Shown: positions 5,552 through 39,961 of the stretch, piece by piece
Layout of the letters: the number at the start of each line of letters is the position of its first letter
Position numbering within the stretch: the stretch's first letter is position 1
DNA from: Spirochaeta africana DSM 8902
GTDB taxonomy: Bacteria > Spirochaetota > Spirochaetia > DSM-27196 > DSM-8902
Assembly: GCF_000242595.2 (NCBI RefSeq)
Contig: NC_017098.1
Coordinates: 2,809,501-2,873,500 of the forward strand
DNA length: 64,000 bases
Reading direction: 5' to 3'
Notes under the pieces: model-generated
Databases searched by the model: none
Told to the model about the DNA's origin: nothing
The model's input: the letters and a program-made list of their open reading frames with translations, nothing else
Program-made: the position numbers and the translations under genes

Positions 5552-8266
5552 TTACGACTCCAGTGCCGTGATGTACGCAGTAATCTTGGCCAGCTTGTCC
5601 TCGAACTCGCGCTGCTTGTCCCGTTCCTTGGCAACTACCTCCGGGATCGCCCGCGACACAAAGTTCTCGTTGGCCAGTTTGCGCCTGGTTGCCTCAAGCT
5701 GCTGCTGCAGCTTGCCGGCATTCCTGTTCAGCTTGGCCAGCTCGGCCTCGATATCAATCTGATCGCGCACATAAACCAGACACTGGAAGCCGTTGCCGAC
5801 TACCCGCACAGCGCCTGCGGCAGCACTGTCGCTGCTGTCTGCGGCCGCCATTACCTGCACCCCCTCGGCCTTGGTAAGCAGCTCGATAAGCGGCACCTGT
5901 TGCCGCAGGAAGTCGGCTGCCGCAAACCCGTCATCGGTTACAATGGCAAACCGCACCCGCGCACTGGGGGGGATAGTAAACTCACTGCGCAGGGTGCGCA
6001 CCAGACGCACCGCCTCCTGCAGCGAGGCAAAGGCTGCGGCGGCCTTCGGATTCTCCCTCTCCGCCGCAGTCTGCGGGAATCGGGCAGTAATGAGCAGTTC
6101 GCTGCGGGGACTCCCGTCGGCAGGCTGCAGCGCCGGCAGTTTGGCGTAGATCTCCTCGGTAATAAAACTCATGTAGGGATGCAGCAGGCGCATGCTCTCT
6201 TCCAGCAGATACATCAGCAGACTGACGGCACGATCCTTCTCTGCCTCGGCAGCAGGGTCGTCCCCGCCAAACAGGCTCAGCTTGCTGGCCTCGACGTACC
6301 AGTCACAAAAGTCATTCCAGAAAAACTCGTACACTGCCTGGGTGGCATCATTAAACCGGAAGCTGGCCATTGCCTTGTGCGCGGCAGCTACAGTATCGTT
6401 CAGGCGGTGATAGATCCATTCGTCCACCGGCTGCAGCTGTATATCCGGAAAAGGAATAATGGTCCGCCCTTCCAGATTCATAAGCAGGTAGCGCGTTGCA
6501 TTCCAGATCTTGTTGGCAAAGCGACTGCCCAGCCCGAAGCTCTCCTTGTCGATCAGGATATCCTGCCCCTGGGCACACATAAAGGCCAGGGTGAACTTCA
6601 GGGCATCGGCGCCATACTCGTCTACAATCTCCAGCGGATCAATCCCATTGCCCAGGCTTTTGGACATCTTGCGGCCCTTGATGTCGCGCACCAGGCTGGT
6701 GATGTAGATATCGCGAAACGGCACCTCGCCCATGAAATGGGTCGAGGCCATGATCATCCTCGCCACCCAGAAAAAGATGATATCGTACGCGGTCACCAGT
6801 GCCGAGGTCGGGAAAAAGTCTCTCAGATCCTGCGTCTCTTCCGGCCACCCCAGGGTGGAGAAGGGCCACAGCCAGGAGCTGAACCAGGTATCAAGCACGT
6901 CCTCGTCGCGCCGCAGCAGCTTGCCGCCGCGCCTGGCGACCTCCTCGGGGGCATTCAGATCGGTGGCTGATACATGCACCTCACCGGTATCGTCGTCGTA
7001 CCAGACCGGTATCCGGTGCCCCCACCACAGCTGGCGACTGATGCACCAGTCACGGATATTCTCCAGCCAGTGGGTATAGGTATTCTCGTATTTTTTCGGG
7101 TAAAAACGGATCTTGCCGTCCTGCCAGGCCTTGAGGGCCTTCTCGGCCAGCGGACGCATCCGCACGAACCACTGCTCGGACAGATAGGGTTCAATAACCA
7201 CGTTGGTGCGGTAGCAGTGTCCGACCTGATGCTTGTGCGGCTCGTCATGACTGAACAGCCCCAGTGCCTCCAGATCACGGACCACCGCCGTACGCGCCTC
7301 TTTCACGCTCATCCCGCGATAGGACTCGGGCACATTGTCGTTCAAGGTGCCATCGGGATTCAGGATATTGATCTTTTCCAGATCATGCCGCTGCGCCATG
7401 TCGTAGTCATTCGGATCATGGGCAGGGGTTATCTTGACCATACCGGTACCGAACTCCTTGTCGACATAATCATCGGCAATGATCGGAATCCGGCGTCCGG
7501 TCAGCGGCAGCTCGACCTCCTGCCCGACCAGATGGGCATAGCGCTCATCCTCGGGATGTACTGCTACTGCGGTATCGCCAAGCATGGTTTCGGGGCGCGT
7601 GGTTGCTACGGTAACCTTGCTCCCGTCCGGCAAGGGATACACCAGATGGTACAGCTTGCCCTGGACCTCTTTATACTCAACCTCGTCGTCCGACAGGGCG
7701 GTTTGCAGGCCACTCGACCAGTTCACCAGATAGGTGCCGCGATAGATCAACCCCTCGTTGTACAGACGCACGAACACCTCGGTAACAGCGGCGTTCAACC
7801 CCTCGTCCAGGGTAAACCGTTCGCGGCTCCAGTCGCAGGAGGAGCCGATTTTCTGCAGCTGTCGGGTAATCGTACCATGATGATCACGCTTGACCTCCCA
7901 GGTACGCTCCAGGAATTTTTCCCGCCCGAGCTCCTCGCGACTGGTTCCCTCATCGCGCAGCTTTCGCTCGACAACATTCTGGGTTGCTATCCCGGCATGG
8001 TCGGTACCGGGGACCCACAGGGTGCGCTTGCCCAGCATGCGATGATACCGTACCAGGATATCCTGCAGGGTATTGTTCAAACCATGTCCCAGGTGCAGTA
8101 CCCCGGTAACATTCGGCGGGGGTATCACCACCGTAAACGGGGTCTCATCCGCACCGTAACGGGGGCTGTCTGCCGGGGCAAACGATCCCGACTCCATCCA
8201 GCGTCGATACATCTCGTCCTCGAACTCACGTGGATTGAATGCCTTTGCTAATTCATTACCCTGCAT
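5552..8266 (-). CDS. valS: Valyl-tRNA synthetase
   Basis: Class I synthetase charging tRNA-Val. 904 residues, the usual bacterial length. PPPNVTGVLHLGHGLNNT carries the HIGH motif (HLGH, residues 58-61). KMSKSLGNGIDP lies near residues 532-543, and a C-terminal Lys/Glu/Leu-rich coiled coil (about 840-904) is the tRNA-binding arm typical of ValRS. The start is ATG 8266 with AAGGAG seven bases upstream. It is followed closely by the kinase-fold gene, membrane gene and ileS, forming a translation operon. The 54-nt gap to the upstream glucosidase gene contains no clear terminator, so some read-through is possible. Confidence 0.98.
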   Translation of the reverse strand: MQGNELAKAFNPREFEDEMYRRWMESGSFAPADSPRYGADETPFTVVIPPPNVTGVLHLGHGLNNTLQDILVRYHRMLGKRTLWVPGTDHAGIATQNVVERKLRDEGTSREELGREKFLERTWEVKRDHHGTITRQLQKIGSSCDWSRERFTLDEGLNAAVTEVFVRLYNEGLIYRGTYLVNWSSGLQTALSDDEVEYKEVQGKLYHLVYPLPDGSKVTVATTRPETMLGDTAVAVHPEDERYAHLVGQEVELPLTGRRIPIIADDYVDKEFGTGMVKITPAHDPNDYDMAQRHDLEKINILNPDGTLNDNVPESYRGMSVKEARTAVVRDLEALGLFSHDEPHKHQVGHCYRTNVVIEPYLSEQWFVRMRPLAEKALKAWQDGKIRFYPKKYENTYTHWLENIRDWCISRQLWWGHRIPVWYDDDTGEVHVSATDLNAPEEVARRGGKLLRRDEDVLDTWFSSWLWPFSTLGWPEETQDLRDFFPTSALVTAYDIIFFWVARMIMASTHFMGEVPFRDIYITSLVRDIKGRKMSKSLGNGIDPLEIVDEYGADALKFTLAFMCAQGQDILIDKESFGLGSRFANKIWNATRYLLMNLEGRTIIPFPDIQLQPVDEWIYHRLNDTVAAAHKAMASFRFNDATQAVYEFFWNDFCDWYVEASKLSLFGGDDPAAEAEKDRAVSLLMYLLEESMRLLHPYMSFITEEIYAKLPALQPADGSPRSELLITARFPQTAAERENPKAAAAFASLQEAVRLVRTLRSEFTIPPSARVRFAIVTDDGFAAADFLRQQVPLIELLTKAEGVQVMAAADSSDSAAAGAVRVVGNGFQCLVYVRDQIDIEAELAKLNRNAGKLQQQLEATRRKLANENFVSRAIPEVVAKERDKQREFEDKLAKITAYITALES

Positions 8267-8320
8267 ATATATGCTCCTTGAAATATTCTGTGTGCGTTCT
8301 GTACTGCGCTGGCCGGGGAG

Positions 8321-10036
8321 CTATCGGCGATCCCACAACAACCAGGCTGCTTCCCATGGCTGCAGCACCACCCTGGCTGGCTCAAAACTGACAGCACGCG
8401 GGAGCTCCCGCATATCCTGAACCGAGGACAGTATCAGGCGCGGGTTCACCTCGGCAACCAGCTGCTCCCAGCCCGACGGGAAATCCCCGGTTGCCAGGTC
8501 CAGTTCAATGGCATCGTCTGTGGGGTTCGCCAGCACCAGCAGCAGCTGATCATCGCAGCTGCGGGCAAATACAAACGCACCGGGATGATCCTCGGCCATA
8601 GCCGACCAGTCACCGGTCAGCACCGGCAGTTCACTGCGATATCCGATAGCCCGGCGATACAGTTCCCAGACAGAGTTGCTATCCTTCAGCTGTGACTGTA
8701 CGTTGACGGCAGTGGCATTCGGATTCACCGCAATCCAGGGATGTGGAAAGACCTCTTCCATATCGGCCTGCCACTGAACCGGCGTTCGGGCGTGGTCGCG
8801 GCTGTGGGCGTTCAAGCGCCGCAGGGCCTCTTCGTCGCTCATGCCGTACTCGTTTCGCATCGCGTCATAGGCATTCAGAGCCTCGATGTCACGAAACTGG
8901 TCTATCGAGGTAAACGGATAGTTCGTCATGCCGATCTCTTCACCCTGATACACATACGGGGTACCCCGCAAACCGTGCAGCACCAGGGCCCACAGCTTGG
9001 CCGATTCTGCCCAGTAGGTTTGATCGTTGCCATAGCGGGACACATGGCGCGGCTGATCATGATTGCTCAGGTACAGGCTGTTCCAGCCCTCCCGGGCTAC
9101 CTCACGCTGCCAGGTGTACAGAACCGACCGCAGCCGGGCCGGATCAAACGGGACGGGATCATACTTGCCGCGCGGGCCATGATCGACCATGACATGCTCG
9201 AAGGTAAAAATCATATTCAGGCGCTCAAGCTCTGGCCGGGTGAGCTCCAGCGCGCGATCACGCGTGCCGTCGATCAGTTCACCAACCGTGATAGTTTCGT
9301 ACTTGCCAAGAACCTCGCGCTGCATCTCGTCCATAAACTCAAGAAATCGCGGACCATTCACATAATGCTCGGTTCCGACCAGTGGACTGTCTCCGACAAC
9401 CCCGTCCGGTAATCCCGGGGTTTTGGAGATCAGATTGATTACATCCATCCGGAACCCGTCCACACCGCGATCCAGCCACCAACGCATCATCTCCCATATC
9501 CGTTGCCGCAGCTCGGGATTCTCCCAGTTCAGGTCGGGCTGTTTTTTCGAGAACAGGTGCAGATAGTACTGCCCGGAGGACTCGTCAAACTCCCACGCTG
9601 ACCCGCTGAAAAAGCTGGTCCAGTTGTTCGGCGGCCCCCCGTTGGGAGCCGGGTCGCGCCAGATGTAGTAGTCGCGGGTCGGTGAGTCCCGGCCTTCGCG
9701 CGCCATGGTAAACCAGCTGTGCTCGTCGGAGCTGTGATTGACCACCAGGTCCATGATCAGCCTGATGCCGTACTGATGCATGGTTTCCAGCATACGATCG
9801 AAGTCCTGCATGGTCCCGAACTCGGGATGGATATCCTGATAATCGGATATGTCGTAGCCATTATCGTCCATCGGGCTGCGATAGACCGGACTCAACCACA
9901 CAACGTCTACTCCCAGCTCGGCCAGATACGGAATTCTCTCGATAATGCCGGGGATATCCCCTACCCCATCGTTGTTTCCATCGGCAAAACTGCGGGGATA
10001 AATCTGGTACACAATGCTGTTTTTCCACCAAGCCAT
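8321..10036 (-). CDS. GH13 alpha-glucosidase, probably oligo-1,6-glucosidase
   Basis: Cytoplasmic retaining alpha-glucosidase of 571 residues without signal peptide. Catalytic residues fit GH13: nucleophile Asp198 in GFRMDVI, acid/base Glu253 in TVGEL, and Asp327 in SNHDQPR. The N-terminus WWKNSIVYQIYPRSF and the TPYVYQGEEIGM motif are typical of the oligo-1,6-glucosidase/dextran glucosidase group. The residue after the nucleophile is Val199; in this subfamily Val marks alpha-1,6 and Ala or Thr marks alpha-1,4 specificity, so I predict isomaltose or panose type substrates. It would finish breakdown of the branch-derived oligosaccharides made by the secreted amylases at the right end. Start ATG 10036 has GGAG upstream. 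Trehalose-6-phosphate hydrolase is a less likely alternative. Confidence 0.9.
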   Translation of the reverse strand: MAWWKNSIVYQIYPRSFADGNNDGVGDIPGIIERIPYLAELGVDVVWLSPVYRSPMDDNGYDISDYQDIHPEFGTMQDFDRMLETMHQYGIRLIMDLVVNHSSDEHSWFTMAREGRDSPTRDYYIWRDPAPNGGPPNNWTSFFSGSAWEFDESSGQYYLHLFSKKQPDLNWENPELRQRIWEMMRWWLDRGVDGFRMDVINLISKTPGLPDGVVGDSPLVGTEHYVNGPRFLEFMDEMQREVLGKYETITVGELIDGTRDRALELTRPELERLNMIFTFEHVMVDHGPRGKYDPVPFDPARLRSVLYTWQREVAREGWNSLYLSNHDQPRHVSRYGNDQTYWAESAKLWALVLHGLRGTPYVYQGEEIGMTNYPFTSIDQFRDIEALNAYDAMRNEYGMSDEEALRRLNAHSRDHARTPVQWQADMEEVFPHPWIAVNPNATAVNVQSQLKDSNSVWELYRRAIGYRSELPVLTGDWSAMAEDHPGAFVFARSCDDQLLLVLANPTDDAIELDLATGDFPSGWEQLVAEVNPRLILSSVQDMRELPRAVSFEPARVVLQPWEAAWLLWDRR

Positions 10037-10086
10037 GGTATTGCTCCTCGGTGCAGGTGTTGCTTCGCGCTGCGGGCGAAAACTGT

Positions 10087-10115
10087 ACTATAGCGTATGC
10101 GCCGGATTAGTGAAA
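10087..10115 (-). promoter_or_regulatory. Candidate sigma70-type promoter for the GH13 glucosidase gene
   Basis: TTTCAC, 17-nt spacer, TATAGT on the minus strand, giving a leader of about 44 nt before the GGAG site of the glucosidase gene. The -10 is good and the -35 weak. The -35 lies inside the end of the methyltransferase gene. Confidence 0.45.
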
Positions 10116-10892
10116 GCGTCTGTAGATCTGCAGCAGTTCCGGGCTGTCCGGCGTGTACGGGCTCCCGTCAAAATCACCGTAGCTGCGCTCCAGCTGCAGA
10201 CCGGCTGCCATACAGGCCTGCTGCACCTCCTCGCCGGTATGCAGGAACAGCTCGTTCGAGATATGCAGCATCTCCCGGTCGTCCGCCAGGTCGTAGAACC
10301 AGTCGAATCGCAAACGGCGCGTGGCGGCAGAATAGCGGGTCGATTCATAACAATCAATGTCATGTCCGTCGGGATCACAGAAACGCTCCAGATGCCGCAG
10401 CTCGCTGCCGTCCGGCCGACACAGTTCGTCGTCCGGCTGCAGCAGCGACAGTACACATCGCCCGCCGACACGCAGATGGCGGGCACATCCCTCGGCCAGC
10501 TGCTGCAATGGGGTGCCGGGCCCGATATGCCCGATGGAGTGATACGGAAACAGCACCAGGTCGTAGCGGTCGGGCAGCTGCAGGCGGCAAACATCCATCT
10601 GGACCAAGCGCAGTAAGCTGCGCTGCTCTTCCGGCAGTGCCGCCGCCTCCTGTCGGGCGAACGCCAGCATATGCGGATCAAGATCAACCCCGGTTACCCG
10701 CATACCGTGCGCCACCAGGGGCAGACTCAATCTGCCGGTGCCGCAACCGAGCTCCAGCAGATCGCTGCCGGTCTGCCCGGCCAGTGCAAGGTAAAACTGC
10801 AGATCCGGCAGCTGCTGCCGATGCTGCGATGCATAGAGGCGTGGAAAGCTGTAGGGTGATTCTGGCATCTGCATACCGCTGGTATCAGACAC
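10107..10892 (-). CDS. SAM-dependent class I methyltransferase
   Basis: 261 residues. Motif I (LLELGCGTGRL, residues 45-55) binds S-adenosylmethionine and is followed by the acidic loop VTGVDLDPHML near residues 66-76, so it is a Rossmann-fold small-molecule or general methyltransferase (Methyltransf_25/11 type). The substrate cannot be read from sequence. The longest start is GTG 10892, overlapping the end of the cNMP-protein gene by 8 nt. An internal ATG at 10874 is the alternative; neither has a well-placed ribosome site, so translational coupling to the upstream gene is likely. Confidence 0.85.
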   Translation of the reverse strand: MSDTSGMQMPESPYSFPRLYASQHRQQLPDLQFYLALAGQTGSDLLELGCGTGRLSLPLVAHGMRVTGVDLDPHMLAFARQEAAALPEEQRSLLRLVQMDVCRLQLPDRYDLVLFPYHSIGHIGPGTPLQQLAEGCARHLRVGGRCVLSLLQPDDELCRPDGSELRHLERFCDPDGHDIDCYESTRYSAATRRLRFDWFYDLADDREMLHISNELFLHTGEEVQQACMAAGLQLERSYGDFDGSPYTPDSPELLQIYRRFH

Positions 10893-12120
10893 CCTTGTTT
10901 TCGCGTCGGGCGCGACTGATCCGCTCCATCTTGCGGTAATACTTGGCCTGCTTTTCCAGTTCGGAGATATCGCTGCAGTACAGCTTGTTCTCGATCACCT
11001 TGAACTTCTTATCCCGCAGGAACTCACGCAGCTTCATCTGTCCGGTATCGGTTGGCAGGCCCACCATGTTCATCAGTTCCTTGGGACCAAAGTCAAAGGT
11101 ATGTGAACCGCCCCGGCGGATCTCGATCCGCCCCTTCTCGAGTTGATTCAGCAGCGCATCGTACATCCGCCCGATCGGGTTCTCTATCAGGGTATTGGCA
11201 AGGCTCTTGTAGATCAGCCAGATACGCTCCGACAACAGTGTCGTCAGCCGGGCTATAATCTGCGGCTGAGACTGAACCATACGGCCGAAGTTCTCCTTGT
11301 TCACTGCCAGCAGCACAGCCTGCTCAAAGGCGATTGCGCTGGCCGATCGCGGTTTGTTCTCCAGCAGCGCCATCTCCCCAAAGATATCTCCCGGTTTCAG
11401 CATCGCCAGCAGGACCTCGTTATCGTTAATGATCTTGGAAATCTTGATGCGACCGCTCTGAATTATGTACAACTCGCGCCCCGGCATGGATTCGGCGAAC
11501 ACCATGGTGTCCTTGGGGTACTCGCGGGTAAACTGATCCTCTGACGGGTCAAGATGCACCGGCGAGGCATAGGGCTGGATCTTTTCCATCCGCTCACGGG
11601 CCTTATCCTGATCACGACCCTGGGGAACCAGTTTCAGATACTGATAGTAGGCGTAGTAGGCAAGATTGTACTGGTTCTGCTTGAGGTAGTACTCCCCGAT
11701 ATAGAAAAGGTGGTCGCTGCTGGTCTCGGAGCTGGTCTTGTAGGTGCGGCTGGCCAGGGCCTCATCCAGGTAGCGCATCCGCCGCGAGAATGCCTCGATG
11801 ATCTTCATGGCAACCGGTGTGTTCCGCTCAATCAGCAGATGGTACTGGTTACGACGGACTGCGATCAGCGAAACCTCGGTCATAGCGCGGGCGGTCTCGA
11901 TATGGCTGTGTGCAGACATGGTAGACACAACCCCGAAAAAATCGCCCGGCCCGAGGATGTTGCCGCCCTGTTCCTGGACAACCTCCACCTCCTTGCTGAT
12001 CTCCACCTTTCCTGAGCGAATGATGTAGAAGCAATCGGCGTCGGCCTTGCCTTCGACGATAATGTACGCTCCCTCCGGAAAGGAAACGATTGACAGCTGT
12101 AACGGATTCGCATTTCCCAT
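10885..12120 (-). CDS. Protein with two cyclic-nucleotide-binding domains
   Basis: 411 residues, cytoplasmic. cNMP-binding domain 1 covers about residues 8-120 and domain 2 about 190-305, with PGDIFGEMALLENKPRSASA as the phosphate-binding cassette of the second (the first has the poorer PGDFFGVVSTMSAHS). A Tyr-rich TPR-like segment lies between them (about 135-175). After domain 2 come helices and about 100 residues that could form a winged-helix DNA-binding end as in CRP/FNR proteins, although the recognition helix is not obvious. Similar double-cNMP proteins are known in spirochaetes. Domain 2 keeps the Arg needed for cyclic nucleotide contact; domain 1 looks degenerate. There is no ribosome site before ATG 12120 (see promoter). 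Confidence 0.85.
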   Translation of the reverse strand: MGNANPLQLSIVSFPEGAYIIVEGKADADCFYIIRSGKVEISKEVEVVQEQGGNILGPGDFFGVVSTMSAHSHIETARAMTEVSLIAVRRNQYHLLIERNTPVAMKIIEAFSRRMRYLDEALASRTYKTSSETSSDHLFYIGEYYLKQNQYNLAYYAYYQYLKLVPQGRDQDKARERMEKIQPYASPVHLDPSEDQFTREYPKDTMVFAESMPGRELYIIQSGRIKISKIINDNEVLLAMLKPGDIFGEMALLENKPRSASAIAFEQAVLLAVNKENFGRMVQSQPQIIARLTTLLSERIWLIYKSLANTLIENPIGRMYDALLNQLEKGRIEIRRGGSHTFDFGPKELMNMVGLPTDTGQMKLREFLRDKKFKVIENKLYCSDISELEKQAKYYRKMERISRARRENKGV

Positions 12121-33540: not shown

Positions 33541-36500
33541 CTAACGCATTGCCCGCAGTACCGCCCCCCCAAAGGTAAACCCGCCCCCGAACGCCGCCAG
33601 ACCAATCGATCCCAACCGCTCTGCCGCATTTTTGTTCGCCGCCGCTTCGGCCGCAGCCACGCCGCCGGCCACTGATTCGTCAGCGGCAGCTTCCATGCCG
33701 TCGACCGCTCCCAGCCCGGCCGCATCGATCAGCGCCAGCGGTATCGTACTGGAGCTGGTATTCCCGTAACGCGCAATGTTGCTGAACATCTTCTCGCGCG
33801 GTGCCTTCATACGCTGACGTACCGCATTGATAATCCGCTGATTCGCCTGGTGCGGCACAATCAGGTCAAGATCTTCCGGCGCTATCCCGGCAGACTCACA
33901 GGCCTGCCCCAGCATCTTCATCATCATGGCTACCGCCTTTACGAACACCTGCGGACCATCCATAAAAATTTTATCCCCGGAATCCGCCGGCACCCGCAGG
34001 ATGCTGCCATCCTCTCCCTCGGCCGACAGCTCGACCGCATCCACACTCCAGCGCCATTCCCCGGCCCGGGCAGCCCCGGACAGCACTGTCGCGGTAGCCG
34101 CATCCCCGAAGATCGGTGCCGTGGAGGGATCCGTGCGATCAATCTGCGGCGACAGCACCTCGCTGGTCAGCAGCAGAACCCGCTGCTTAGGGCGCCGGAA
34201 CAGATAGTCCGACACATACTGCAGGGCATAGAGATACCCCGAGCAGGCCGCGTTCAGATCCACCGCCGGAATCTGCAGCTGCGCAGAACCCGCCCGCCGG
34301 GCCAGCCCCGCCTGTACCATCGCCGCGATCGTCGGGGTATGATGCAATGGCGAACCGGTAGCACACACGATCAGATCGATTTCACCGACCTCAAGCCCGG
34401 CCTGCTCCAGCGCCACGACCGCCGCCTGCTCGGCAAGCACCGCTCCGTCTTCGCCCTCGTCGACCCAGGGGCGCTGTTCGATCCCCGTCTTCTTTACGAT
34501 ATCCTCAGGTGTAAGCTCGCTGCACCCCCCCGCGATCTCGTCGTTGGTCACAATCCGCGAACCGGCTCGACCCGCTATCGTCACGATTCCGGCCGGGGCG
34601 GCCTGTGCAGGTTGTGCGCCGCCCGCTGCCGGTGCGAACGGTGCGGCGGCCAATGCGCCGCCATCCCCAGCAGCCCCGAAGCAAGTCGAACCGGCATCAC
34701 CCTCCCCGGCCCCAACCAGCCTGATCCCGCTGATCACCGGCTCGCCAGGATTCTCACGCGTTACCGGCTTGAGCGGCGCATCCTCGTCCTCGTTGACCGT
34801 GGACACCTTGACCAGCGCCTCGCCGACCGCCGCAGAATCTCCAACCTCCACCAGCAGCTCCAGCACCTCACCATCTACCGGGCTCTTCAGATCGAACGAA
34901 GCCTTGTCCGCCTCCAGCTCGGCCACCAGATCCCCGGATGCAATCCGCTGCCCCGGCGCGATCTTCCACTCCAGCACCGTCACCTCTTCGTCTGACGGAC
35001 TCGAACCGATCGCCTCGATCAGGTACTCACCGGCCCCCGCCTCCGCCGGGGCCTCCCAGCGGATTTCACCGCCCAGCATTCCCACCGCCGTCTCCAGAAT
35101 CCGCTGATACGACGGCAGAACCTGCAGCTGATTGCCAAAGTTGCACGGCACAAAGGTATCCGGCCGCGTCACCCGCCGCACCGTAATCGGCCGCGCAACC
35201 CGCTCGGCCACCGTAGCCACAATCTCGGCACCGACGCCCGCCGAGCGGTTATCCTCGTGGGACACCAGCAGCCGCCCGGTTTTCTCGACCGAAGCCACCA
35301 CCCGATCGACATCCCACGGCATCAGATGCCGCAGATCGATCACCTCGCTCGACACCCCGTGCGCATCCAGGGCCGCCGCTGCCTTCATCGACAGCCCGAC
35401 CGTGTTCCCGTAGCCCACAAAGGTAATATCCGAACCCGCACGCACCGTCCGCGCCGTTCCGATCGGCACCAGATGCCGGTCGATATCCACACTCGTCGCA
35501 TCCTCGCGATTGTTCAAACAGTTTTTCGGGTAAAAGAACAGCGTCGGCCGCCCCGAGCGGAAGGCCGCATTCAGCATCCCCGCCGCATCACCCGCCGTAC
35601 TCGGCATGCACACATCCACCCCCGGAGTATGCATCGCCAGCGCCTCGAAACTCGAGGCATGAAACGGCCCCAGCCCCGGCCGATAGCCCCCGCAAGTAAT
35701 CATCACAATCACCGGGCACTGCCAGCCCCCGTCGGTCCGCCAGAACATTGACCCCAGCTCGCTCACGATCTGGTTGTAGGCAATCGGCAGAAAGTCAGCA
35801 AACTGCAGAAACGCCACCGGCAGCTGCCCCGCCAGCGCCCGCCCGATCGACACCCCCAGGATGCTCGCCTCGGCCAGCGGCGAGTTCTCCACCCGCCCTG
35901 GGAAGGCCGTCGACAGCCCCTTGGTCACCCCGAACACATCCCCCTTCGGGTCCTCGATATCCTCGCCAAACAGATGCACCCGCTCGTTGGCCGCCAGATT
36001 GTTGCGCAGCACCTCACGGATCGCCTCGATCATCGTCCGCCGCTCGCCCTCGCTCAAGGCAGCCGCCCCGGTTTCACCAGCCTGCCCGGCTTCGCCAGCA
36101 CCACCAGCGCCCCCGGCCTGGCCAGTCGCCCCACGTCCACCGGCTCCACCAGCGCCTCCGGCACCACCAGACCCGGCCGCCGCCCCGCGATACTCGGCCG
36201 CACCCGGCGCCACCTCCGCCGGCAGCGGCGCCAGCGCATCCATCACCGGCTGCGGCTCGGCACTGCGCTGAACCCGCCGTGCCGTCTCCGCCAGCTCATC
36301 CCGGATCTCCCCGGCAATCTCCTGCAGCCGCTCACGGCTTTCCCCCGCTGCCTCCAGCCGCTGGGTCAGGTGAATCAACGGATCCCCGCTCACCGCCACC
36401 CGCTGGATATCATCAGCCGAACGATACACCCGCTGATCATCCGCATTGGTATGGTTATGCAACCGGTCAACCTCGGCCACCACCACCCGCGGCCGACGAT

Positions 36501-37170
36501 CCGTTCGCATCCCGGCTACCACCGGCTCCAGCACCTCGGCCAGCCCCACCGGATCGCGCCCATCAACCCGGATAATCTCCATCCCGTGAAATTCGCCCGC
36601 CGGCCCATCCGGCAAATCGTAGAAAGTCTGCCCACGGGTAACCGTAGAGATCGCATAGCTGTTGTCCTGGATCAGAAACAGCACCGGCAGCCCGGCGCGC
36701 GCCGCATGGGCAAACCCCTCCAGCGACTCCCCCTCCTGCGTCATCCCGTCGCCCAGTGAGCACAACACAATCGGCCTGGACACATCATCGCGGATCGCCG
36801 CCGCAACCCCCGCCGCCTGCAGCGGACTGTTGCCCACCGGCCCCACCAGCGACAGCACATTCAGCTCCGGCGCACTCATGTGCGCATTCATCTGCCGCCC
36901 CCGCGAATGCGACCCATCCTTGGTAAACAGACTCTGGAAAAACATCGCCGGGCTGATACCCCGCGCCAGCATCAACGCCTTGTCACGGTAATGGCAATGC
37001 AGATAATCCTCCGGCTGCAGGAACAACTGCAGCGCCGCAAACCCCTCATGCCCCGCCCCCGACACATGAAAGAAAGCCTCTCCCCGCCCGGTAAAACTCT
37101 GCTCCAGCAGATCCATCTCCCGCGCCGTCACCATCCAGCGGTACAGTCGCATCAGCTCCTTGGAATCCAT
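33541..37170 (-). CDS. Fusion of 2-oxoacid dehydrogenase E1 alpha, E1 beta, lipoyl domain and FabH-type ketosynthase
   Basis: 1209 residues in four parts. (1) E1 alpha, residues 1-310, with the thiamine-diphosphate motif GDGMTQEGESLEGF (140-153) to N170. (2) A Gly/Ala/Glu linker (325-372), then E1 beta, 375-700 (FGEDIEDPKGDVFGVTKGL, SHEDNRSAGVGAEI). (3) A lipoyl-type domain, 725-792, with the lipoylation-site lysine K756 in EADKASFDLKSP. (4) After an Ala-rich linker, a KASIII/FabH domain, 862-1209, with the complete triad Cys976 (NAACSGYL), His1107 (PHQANQR) and Asn1137 (YGNTSSSTIP). No E2 acyltransferase or E3 domain is present. I infer decarboxylation of a 2-oxoacid onto the lipoyl arm and delivery of the acyl group to the ketosynthase. 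GGAGGGTGAGG precedes ATG 37170. An Ala-rich insertion (1158-1190) interrupts the ketosynthase near its end. Confidence 0.9.
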   Translation of the reverse strand: MDSKELMRLYRWMVTAREMDLLEQSFTGRGEAFFHVSGAGHEGFAALQLFLQPEDYLHCHYRDKALMLARGISPAMFFQSLFTKDGSHSRGRQMNAHMSAPELNVLSLVGPVGNSPLQAAGVAAAIRDDVSRPIVLCSLGDGMTQEGESLEGFAHAARAGLPVLFLIQDNSYAISTVTRGQTFYDLPDGPAGEFHGMEIIRVDGRDPVGLAEVLEPVVAGMRTDRRPRVVVAEVDRLHNHTNADDQRVYRSADDIQRVAVSGDPLIHLTQRLEAAGESRERLQEIAGEIRDELAETARRVQRSAEPQPVMDALAPLPAEVAPGAAEYRGAAAGSGGAGGAGGAGGRGATGQAGGAGGAGEAGQAGETGAAALSEGERRTMIEAIREVLRNNLAANERVHLFGEDIEDPKGDVFGVTKGLSTAFPGRVENSPLAEASILGVSIGRALAGQLPVAFLQFADFLPIAYNQIVSELGSMFWRTDGGWQCPVIVMITCGGYRPGLGPFHASSFEALAMHTPGVDVCMPSTAGDAAGMLNAAFRSGRPTLFFYPKNCLNNREDATSVDIDRHLVPIGTARTVRAGSDITFVGYGNTVGLSMKAAAALDAHGVSSEVIDLRHLMPWDVDRVVASVEKTGRLLVSHEDNRSAGVGAEIVATVAERVARPITVRRVTRPDTFVPCNFGNQLQVLPSYQRILETAVGMLGGEIRWEAPAEAGAGEYLIEAIGSSPSDEEVTVLEWKIAPGQRIASGDLVAELEADKASFDLKSPVDGEVLELLVEVGDSAAVGEALVKVSTVNEDEDAPLKPVTRENPGEPVISGIRLVGAGEGDAGSTCFGAAGDGGALAAAPFAPAAGGAQPAQAAPAGIVTIAGRAGSRIVTNDEIAGGCSELTPEDIVKKTGIEQRPWVDEGEDGAVLAEQAAVVALEQAGLEVGEIDLIVCATGSPLHHTPTIAAMVQAGLARRAGSAQLQIPAVDLNAACSGYLYALQYVSDYLFRRPKQRVLLLTSEVLSPQIDRTDPSTAPIFGDAATATVLSGAARAGEWRWSVDAVELSAEGEDGSILRVPADSGDKIFMDGPQVFVKAVAMMMKMLGQACESAGIAPEDLDLIVPHQANQRIINAVRQRMKAPREKMFSNIARYGNTSSSTIPLALIDAAGLGAVDGMEAAADESVAGGVAAAEAAANKNAAERLGSIGLAAFGGGFTFGGAVLRAMR

Positions 37171-37468: not shown

Positions 37469-37542
37469 GGGCCCATAGCTCAGCTGGTTAGAGCAACGGA
37501 CTCATAATCCGTGTGTCCTCGGTTCAAGCCCGAGTGGGCCCA
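37469..37542 (+). tRNA. tRNA with CAT anticodon (elongator Met, or Ile2 read with lysidine)
   Basis: 74 nt forming a full cloverleaf: acceptor GGGCCCA pairing with TGGGCCC, D-loop AGCTCAGCTGGTTAGAGC, anticodon arm with CAT at 37503-37505 in loop CTCATAA, and T-arm with GGTTCAAGCC. The discriminator base is A and the CCA end is not encoded. It is not an initiator tRNA, as it pairs at position 1-72 and lacks the GGG/CCC anticodon stem. CAT can mean elongator methionine or the minor AUA-reading isoleucine tRNA; by eye I cannot decide. Eight T follow two bases after the gene. Confidence 0.93.
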
Positions 37543-39037: not shown

Positions 39038-39715
39038 TTACTCTCCCACAAACCGGAGATAGGTGACAGGCGCCTGTGAGAGATCAGAAAACGGTCCCCG
39101 GTAGCGTTCAGGCAACGCTGCGGCCAGCTGATACATCATCTGGTTGGTGATTTCCTTGAGCTGCTCGCGGTTTGGATGGCCGTCGGGAACCTCAACGTAG
39201 AACGGCTTGCCCACTTTAACCCCGACCTGGGTGCGCTTGAACCGCCGGATGTTCTTGCCAATGTCCATGAGGCCCCAGTGGACAAGGGGATAGACCGGCA
39301 CGTGTTTTCGTGCAGCCAGCATGGCAGCTCCCGGGCGGCCCGATCTCAGCGCGCCGGTTTTACTCCGGGTTCCCTCGGCGGCAACACCAAGAAACCAGCC
39401 CTGATCCAGACGCTCCATGGCCTTTTTCATAGCGGTGGTATCCACCCTGCCCCGGTGCACAGGAATGATATTCCAAGCTTTCATAACCATCCGCGTGAAC
39501 GGGTTTTTCCAGAGCTCCTGCTTGCCAAGAGCCGTAGCTTTCCGGGAACGCAGGTACACATAGTAAAGCGGCCCTTCCAGATTGGTGGTATGATTGGACA
39601 GCAGGATGCCAGGTCCTTCTGCCGGAATTTTGTCGAACTCATGGGTATCAATTTTGCACGTCAAGGTAAACAGCATGCGAATCACGCTGTTGAGAAACCA
39701 TGCCTGTATGGACAC
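39038..39715 (-). CDS. 1-acyl-sn-glycerol-3-phosphate acyltransferase-like protein (HX4E variant)
   Basis: 225 residues, PlsC-type acyltransferase making phosphatidic acid or a related lipid. Conserved blocks: NHTTNLEGPLYY (motif I), IPVHRGR (motif II, residues 84-90), EGTRS (114-118, motif III) and VPVYPLVHWG (motif IV). Motif I is normally HX4D; here the acidic residue is Glu47 after His42. The preserved blocks suggest an active enzyme, but the swap is unusual. Start GTG 39715 is set by AAGGGGAAG; a longer frame to 39784 lacks a ribosome site. It has its own promoter (TTGCAT-18-TAGAGT). Confidence 0.88.
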   Translation of the reverse strand: MSIQAWFLNSVIRMLFTLTCKIDTHEFDKIPAEGPGILLSNHTTNLEGPLYYVYLRSRKATALGKQELWKNPFTRMVMKAWNIIPVHRGRVDTTAMKKAMERLDQGWFLGVAAEGTRSKTGALRSGRPGAAMLAARKHVPVYPLVHWGLMDIGKNIRRFKRTQVGVKVGKPFYVEVPDGHPNREQLKEITNQMMYQLAAALPERYRGPFSDLSQAPVTYLRFVGE

Positions 39716-39961
39716 TATCTTCCCCTTCCCAGAATTTGCGGCGCAAACCCTGGACAACTGTCTTACTCTACAGGATCTCCCCATAATGATGCAATCTCTT
39801 CGTGTTGCACTACGCCGGCGACAGGACTGGTGTTAGCAGCCGCCTGGCTGATGGAGCTACAGCGCTTTGCTGCAATCTGTACTCAAGATACGCTATAACT
39901 GCTGAGGAGATTCCGTCAAAGGTTGACCAGTCCAACCTTCGTCGAGACCAAGAGAGCATAG
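39716..39961. other. Intergenic region with the acyltransferase promoter
   Basis: No gene seen. Besides the promoter at 39765-39794 it holds an inverted repeat, AAGGTTG and CAACCTT with a 7-nt gap, at 39919-39939, without T-run. Confidence 0.5.
39765..39794 (-). promoter_or_regulatory. Candidate promoter of the acyltransferase gene
   Basis: TTGCAT, 18-nt spacer, TAGAGT on the minus strand, about 50 nt before the GTG start. Confidence 0.55.

Follow-up and report, generated by a model that had tools for sequence, protein, structure and literature searches.

Entry into type II fatty-acid synthesis is mostly from acyl-CoA or acyl-ACP, and in FabH the acyl pocket is gated by position 87 and ACP docks at Arg249. 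In the E. coli enzyme, the adenine of CoA is stacked between Trp32 and Arg151 and touches Thr28 (PMC4606726). In the dehydrogenase of G. stearothermophilus, His128β is the proposed proton donor in the reductive acylation of lipoate (PMC2663715). Here, we describe a protein of Spirochaeta africana DSM 8902 that brings parts of both systems together as E1α, E1β, a lipoyl domain, and a FabH-like ketosynthase (KASIII) on one chain. From its sequence, we consider it likely that the protein is a 2-oxoacid dehydrogenase in which a fatty-acid-initiating ketosynthase replaces E2, with branched-chain 2-oxoacids as the likeliest substrates. There is also a reasonably good chance that it is an enzyme of a new type, namely a CoA-independent 2-oxoacid:malonyl-ACP dehydrogenase–ketosynthase in which oxidative decarboxylation would feed straight into the formation of a carbon–carbon bond, and that this type is present in three phyla and was probably assembled at least twice. 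We found no description of this architecture in the open-access literature, and it is apparently undescribed so far.

The window (the whole stretch of DNA analysed, 64,000 nucleotides) covers positions 2,809,501–2,873,500 of a genome that forms a single contig of 3,285,855 bp and is 99.98% complete. An earlier note on this DNA had claimed a single E1α–E1β–lipoyl–FabH chain, and this is borne out by one unbroken ORF (Table 1), along which the Pfam matches follow one another from the N- to the C-terminus as E1_dh (11–308), Transket_pyr (379–552), Transketolase_C (571–682), Biotin_lipoyl (728–788), and ACP_syn_III/ACP_syn_III_C (971–1173), every one of them well over its cut-off. The residues that it had named, G140/D141, N170, K756 in EADKASF, C976, H1107, and N1137, are all where they were said to be. 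In Pfam searches, neither the E2 acyltransferase domain (PF00198) nor an E3-binding domain was found in the chain, and KASIII occupies the place of E2. It should be mentioned that the window copy carries Gly/Ala-rich inserts, at residues 331–372 in the linker between E1α and E1β and at about 1160–1185 near the C-terminus of KASIII, which are poorly kept in its relatives.

Table 1. Features of the fusion gene and its product, in positions of the window.
Feature	Position	Strand	Basis
E1α–E1β–lipoyl–KASIII fusion, complete ORF, 1209 aa	33541..37170	-	ORF, Pfam, and full-length homologues
E1α domain, residues 3–320	36211..37164	-	PF00676
ThDP/Mg motif G140-D141-G142 in E1α	36745–36753	-	Alignment of 49 fusions
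N170 of E1α (ThDP/Mg motif)	36661–36663	-	49/49 fusions
Gly/Ala-rich E1α/E1β linker, residues 321–376	36043..36210	-	Little conservation, low pLDDT
E1β domain, residues 377–697	35080..36042	-	PF02779, PF02780
Glu434 of E1β	35869–35871	-	Alignment
His504 of E1β	35659–35661	-	Aligned with G. stearothermophilus His128β
Lipoyl domain, residues 722–795	34786..35007	-	PF00364 above cut-off; folded in model
Predicted lipoyl-lysine K756 (EADKASF)	34903–34905	-	K in 49/49 fusions
Linker 2, residues 796–857, flexible	34600..34785	-	Mostly disordered by prediction; swinging arm
KASIII (FabH-like) domain, residues 858–1209	33544..34599	-	Pfam, fold match, alignment
C976 of KASIII	34243–34245	-	49/49 fusions
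H1107 of KASIII	33850–33852	-	49/49 fusions
N1137 of KASIII	33760–33762	-	49/49 fusions
Asp890, at E. coli FabH Trp32 position (CoA-adenine stacking)	34501..34503	-	Alignment
Pro1015, at E. coli FabH Arg151 position (CoA-adenine stacking)	34126..34128	-	Alignment
Thr945, at E. coli FabH Phe87 position (acyl-pocket gate)	34336..34338	-	Thr/Ser in 49/49 fusions

In AlphaFold models, the lipoyl and KASIII domains are well folded and the linkers between them largely disordered, and such predicted disorder would fit the requirement of a swinging arm. The closest fold to the KASIII domain is A. aeolicus FabH (2ebd, TM 0.90 by target length), and the E1β part of the full-length model matches both branched-chain and pyruvate E1β structures. 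Because the alignment behind the models was only 14 sequences deep, the arrangement of the domains was left uninterpreted.

We aligned 49 full-length fusions from the Spirochaetota, Planctomycetota, and Verrucomicrobiota. Eight residues, G140, N170, Glu434, His504, K756, C976, H1107, and N1137, are invariant in all of them; position 141 is Asp in 40 fusions and Glu in the other nine, and Gly142 is replaced by Ser in a single one. The E1 part has both the ThDP motif and the residues of reductive acylation, the lipoyl domain is recognized by PF00364 above the cut-off with K756 as its predicted site of lipoylation, and the KASIII domain has both the thiolase fold and the Cys-His-Asn triad.

The residues that hold the adenine of CoA in FabH have a different history. 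Trp32, Arg151, and Thr28 are all missing from the 49 fusions: in place of Trp32 they have Asp, Glu, Ala, Gly, or Lys, and none of them has Arg at position 151. Among 23 reference sequences, Arg151 is present in every one and Trp32 in 22, the exception being the lipoyl–KASIII protein of genome G252 described below. In other words, the KASIII of the fusions is without the adenine clamp (Trp32/Arg151) by which an acyl-CoA primer is bound. Arg249 is present in 49/49 fusions, and residue 87, which is bulky in the other, ordinary FabHs, is Thr or Ser throughout. With the triad and Arg249 kept and the clamp gone, the domain looks fit for an ACP-bound extender and seems to lack a handle for a CoA primer. 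We take the loss of the clamp to mean weaker use of CoA; use of the lipoyl group does not follow from it.

The domain architecture is conserved across spirochaetes and related bacteria, with full-length single-ORF fusions in the Spirochaetota, Planctomycetota, and Verrucomicrobiota. A protein search of genome contigs gave 15 loci, at 12 of which the whole chain lies in one ORF; strong matches were present in 15 of the 393 Spirochaetota genomes sampled, one of them an E2-type protein (G211) and another frameshifted (G200). The phylum to which the planctomycete L014 belongs has the fusion in five of 392 genomes, twice in one case, and in that of the verrucomicrobial contig L018, about 35 of the 388 genomes have it end to end. 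With full-length homologues in so many genomes of three phyla, the architecture is well outside what chance would give, an assembly or sequencing error that joined separate genes is rejected, and the search for the same domain order elsewhere, as the earlier note had advised, has removed this doubt. The two copies in one planctomycete genome (G393:C223 and G393:C78) are about 48% identical, and their substrates perhaps differ. The G200 gene (L063, G200:C1:806001-826000; 7834–11299, minus strand) is broken over three frames, by either pseudogene formation or a sequencing error; we take this genome to be that of Salinispira pacifica. The published strain of that species still makes iso-C15:0 (PMC4511686).

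In a phylogenetic tree, the KASIII domains of the fusions form one clade (support 100/100), on a long branch away from ordinary FabH, and the KASIII-bearing chains also form one clade in the E1αβ tree (100/100). Their sister clade in the latter tree (99/95) consists of single E1α–E1β–lipoyl chains that end in an E2 acyltransferase. One E1αβ–lipoyl module is thus found with two alternative acyl acceptors, one of which hands the acyl group to CoA, and the other of which should hand it to the growing acyl chain. A split form occurs in G252, a related spirochaete of the same taxonomic order (L097, 5040–8659, minus strand), where an E1αβ gene is followed, 35 bp downstream, by a gene for a lipoyl–E3-binding–KASIII protein; it was seen once among 393 Spirochaetota genomes at E ≤ 1e-85. 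The clamp of its KASIII is partly eroded (Tyr32, Ile28), and the domain adjoins the fusion clade in the KASIII tree with moderate support (96/79). Because the E1 of G252 is very distant from that of the fusions in the E1αβ tree, and because its KASIII scores above the ordinary FabH cut-off, it looks like a second assembly, and on these sequence data an independent origin of the lipoyl–PSBD–KASIII form is likely.

The absence of E2 and E3 stated in the earlier note is true of the chain itself and of the DNA close to it; the genome as a whole does have both, in a separate E1α–E1β–E2–E3 operon at C1:2067525–2072305. The E1α of this operon scores above the pyruvate dehydrogenase cut-off, and its E3 (C1:2067528–2068898) is above the cut-off of TIGR01350. 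No second canonical 2-oxoacid dehydrogenase was found in the genome, pyruvate dehydrogenase being the only canonical complex found, and there is one clear match of the pyruvate:ferredoxin-oxidoreductase type. An ordinary FabH is encoded beside fabD-, fabG-, and fabF-like genes. A second fatty-acid-like cluster in the same genome (L099, G000:C1:2584260–2590800) contains a divergent KASIII that retains Trp32 and Arg151. Since the genome encodes an ordinary E3 at another site, sharing this enzyme is enough for a normal oxidative cycle; the E1β His of reductive acylation is invariant, and the non-oxidative cycle that had been considered for want of an E3 is not needed. All of the spirochaete genomes tested that carry the fusion also encode an ordinary FabH, E2, and E3, and the idea that the fusion substitutes for a missing one of them was rejected. 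As the genome has its own pyruvate dehydrogenase and ordinary FabH, the fusion would be an additional, dedicated route of initiation rather than the sole one.

On the strength of the conserved catalytic residues, we propose that the E1αβ part would decarboxylate a 2-oxoacid on ThDP and reductively acylate the lipoyl group on K756. As the architecture and the comparison with relatives suggest, the lipoyl arm would bring the acyl thioester to KASIII, where Cys976 would accept it instead of acyl-CoA, and condensation with malonyl-ACP, with release of CO2, would give a 3-oxoacyl-ACP with which type II fatty-acid synthesis could be primed. The dihydrolipoyl arm would be reoxidized with NAD+ by the ordinary E3 of the pyruvate dehydrogenase operon. 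Such a CoA-free passage from acyl-lipoyl through the KASIII Cys to malonyl-ACP was already put forward in the earlier note; the loss of the clamp, the exchange of E2 and KASIII, and the G252 form give it strong comparative support, and the reaction itself is predicted.

The best guess for the substrate is 4-methyl-2-oxopentanoate, which would lead to iso-odd fatty acids such as iso-C15:0. The leucine pathway yields 4-methyl-2-oxopentanoate, from which iso-odd fatty acids are derived, and in one genome only (G349, locus L058), the fusion gene is immediately preceded by leuA (TIGR00970) and leuB (TIGR00169), both in its own orientation. The absence of iso-C15:0 has been described as a feature unique to S. 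asiatica and S. dissipatitropha among related species, which implies that S. africana has this fatty acid (PMC4511686). Together, the leuA–leuB pair, iso-C15:0, the lack of a second canonical dehydrogenase, and the single match of the pyruvate:ferredoxin-oxidoreductase type favour branched-chain 2-oxoacids. The scores of the E1 domains do not separate these from pyruvate, E1α scoring best with branched-chain E1α and E1β equally with both.

The patchy distribution of the fusion, the ordinary FabH in the same genomes, and a FabF-like ketosynthase beside the fusion at one planctomycete locus could mean that it supplies the starter of some dedicated secondary lipid or polyketide and not that of bulk membrane fatty acids. 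We regard this as unlikely, in that no conserved biosynthetic cluster surrounds the gene at 40-odd loci, and in S. africana it is monocistronic. The neighbours, which the earlier note had suggested inspecting for ACP, LipA/LplA, E3, and desaturase genes, vary and are mostly non-lipid genes, and no conserved operon with ACP or lipid genes was found across these loci. Some of them should nevertheless be mentioned. A gene for the aconitase AcnA is divergent from the fusion gene at L005 (2587–5316) and at nine other spirochaete loci; genes for PlsC-like acyltransferases are found not far from the fusion in the window (39038–39784, minus strand) and at the verrucomicrobial L160 (5756–6550); and a tRNA-Met gene (37469–37542, plus strand) precedes the fusion gene on the opposite strand.

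More doubtful still is that the same CoA-free mechanism works on pyruvate, with acetyl-lipoyl giving acetoacetyl-ACP and straight-chain initiation. The E1β scores, equal with the pyruvate dehydrogenase of G. stearothermophilus and the branched-chain E1β of Thermus, would allow it, and the nearest NCBIfam E1α models are of pyruvate dehydrogenase types, below their cut-off. Against it, the genome already encodes an ordinary FabH as well as a pyruvate dehydrogenase complex and a protein like pyruvate:ferredoxin oxidoreductase, residue 87 is Thr or Ser and not bulky, leuA–leuB adjoin the fusion in L058, and iso-C15:0 is implied in S. africana. That the halves are merely co-expressed or tethered, so that E1–lipoyl and a separate E2 make acyl-CoA for KASIII to use as usual, is very improbable: E2 and E3 are indeed separately encoded in each of the fusion-carrying spirochaete genomes tested, but the CoA-adenine clamp is lost in 49/49 fusions, the sister clade has its own E2 in cis at the same position, and G252 has a lipoyl–PSBD–KASIII protein of apparently independent origin.

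If the fusion does pass acyl groups from a branched-chain 2-oxoacid directly to KASIII, acyl-lipoyl would donate directly to chain initiation, and branched-chain fatty acids could be formed with no need of a pool of branched-chain acyl-CoA. This would account for iso-C15:0 in a spirochaete that has pyruvate dehydrogenase as its only canonical complex, widen the view of what may end a lipoyl arm, and provide a compact, engineerable module from a keto acid to a fatty-acid primer.

Compared with the branched-chain and pyruvate dehydrogenase complexes, the fusion shares E1α and E1β with the ThDP motif, the catalytic Glu and His, and the EADKA lipoyl lysine. Whereas those complexes consist of an E1αβ heterotetramer, E2, and E3, here E1α, E1β, and the lipoyl domain are in one chain, which has KASIII in place of the E2 acyltransferase and has no E3-binding domain; without PF00198, the fusion is therefore not classed as an ordinary 2-oxoacid dehydrogenase complex. 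It resembles FabH in fold, Cys-His-Asn triad, and Arg249, but its KASIII stands behind a lipoyl arm, has lost Trp32 and Arg151, has Thr or Ser in place of Phe87, and scores 211.7, below the NCBIfam FabH cut-off of 292.1. The E1α–E1β–lipoyl–E2 chains of Planctomycetota and one spirochaete (L064, L113–L118) have the same N-terminal part and are its sisters in the E1 tree; unlike the fusion, they end in E2 (PF00198) and should make acyl-CoA. Actinobacterial OdhA, the two-in-one 2-oxoglutarate dehydrogenase, likewise unites a dehydrogenase and an acyl-accepting domain in one chain, but there the succinyltransferase (E2) step is on the same polypeptide and succinyl-CoA is made, with no ketosynthase (PMC10415282).
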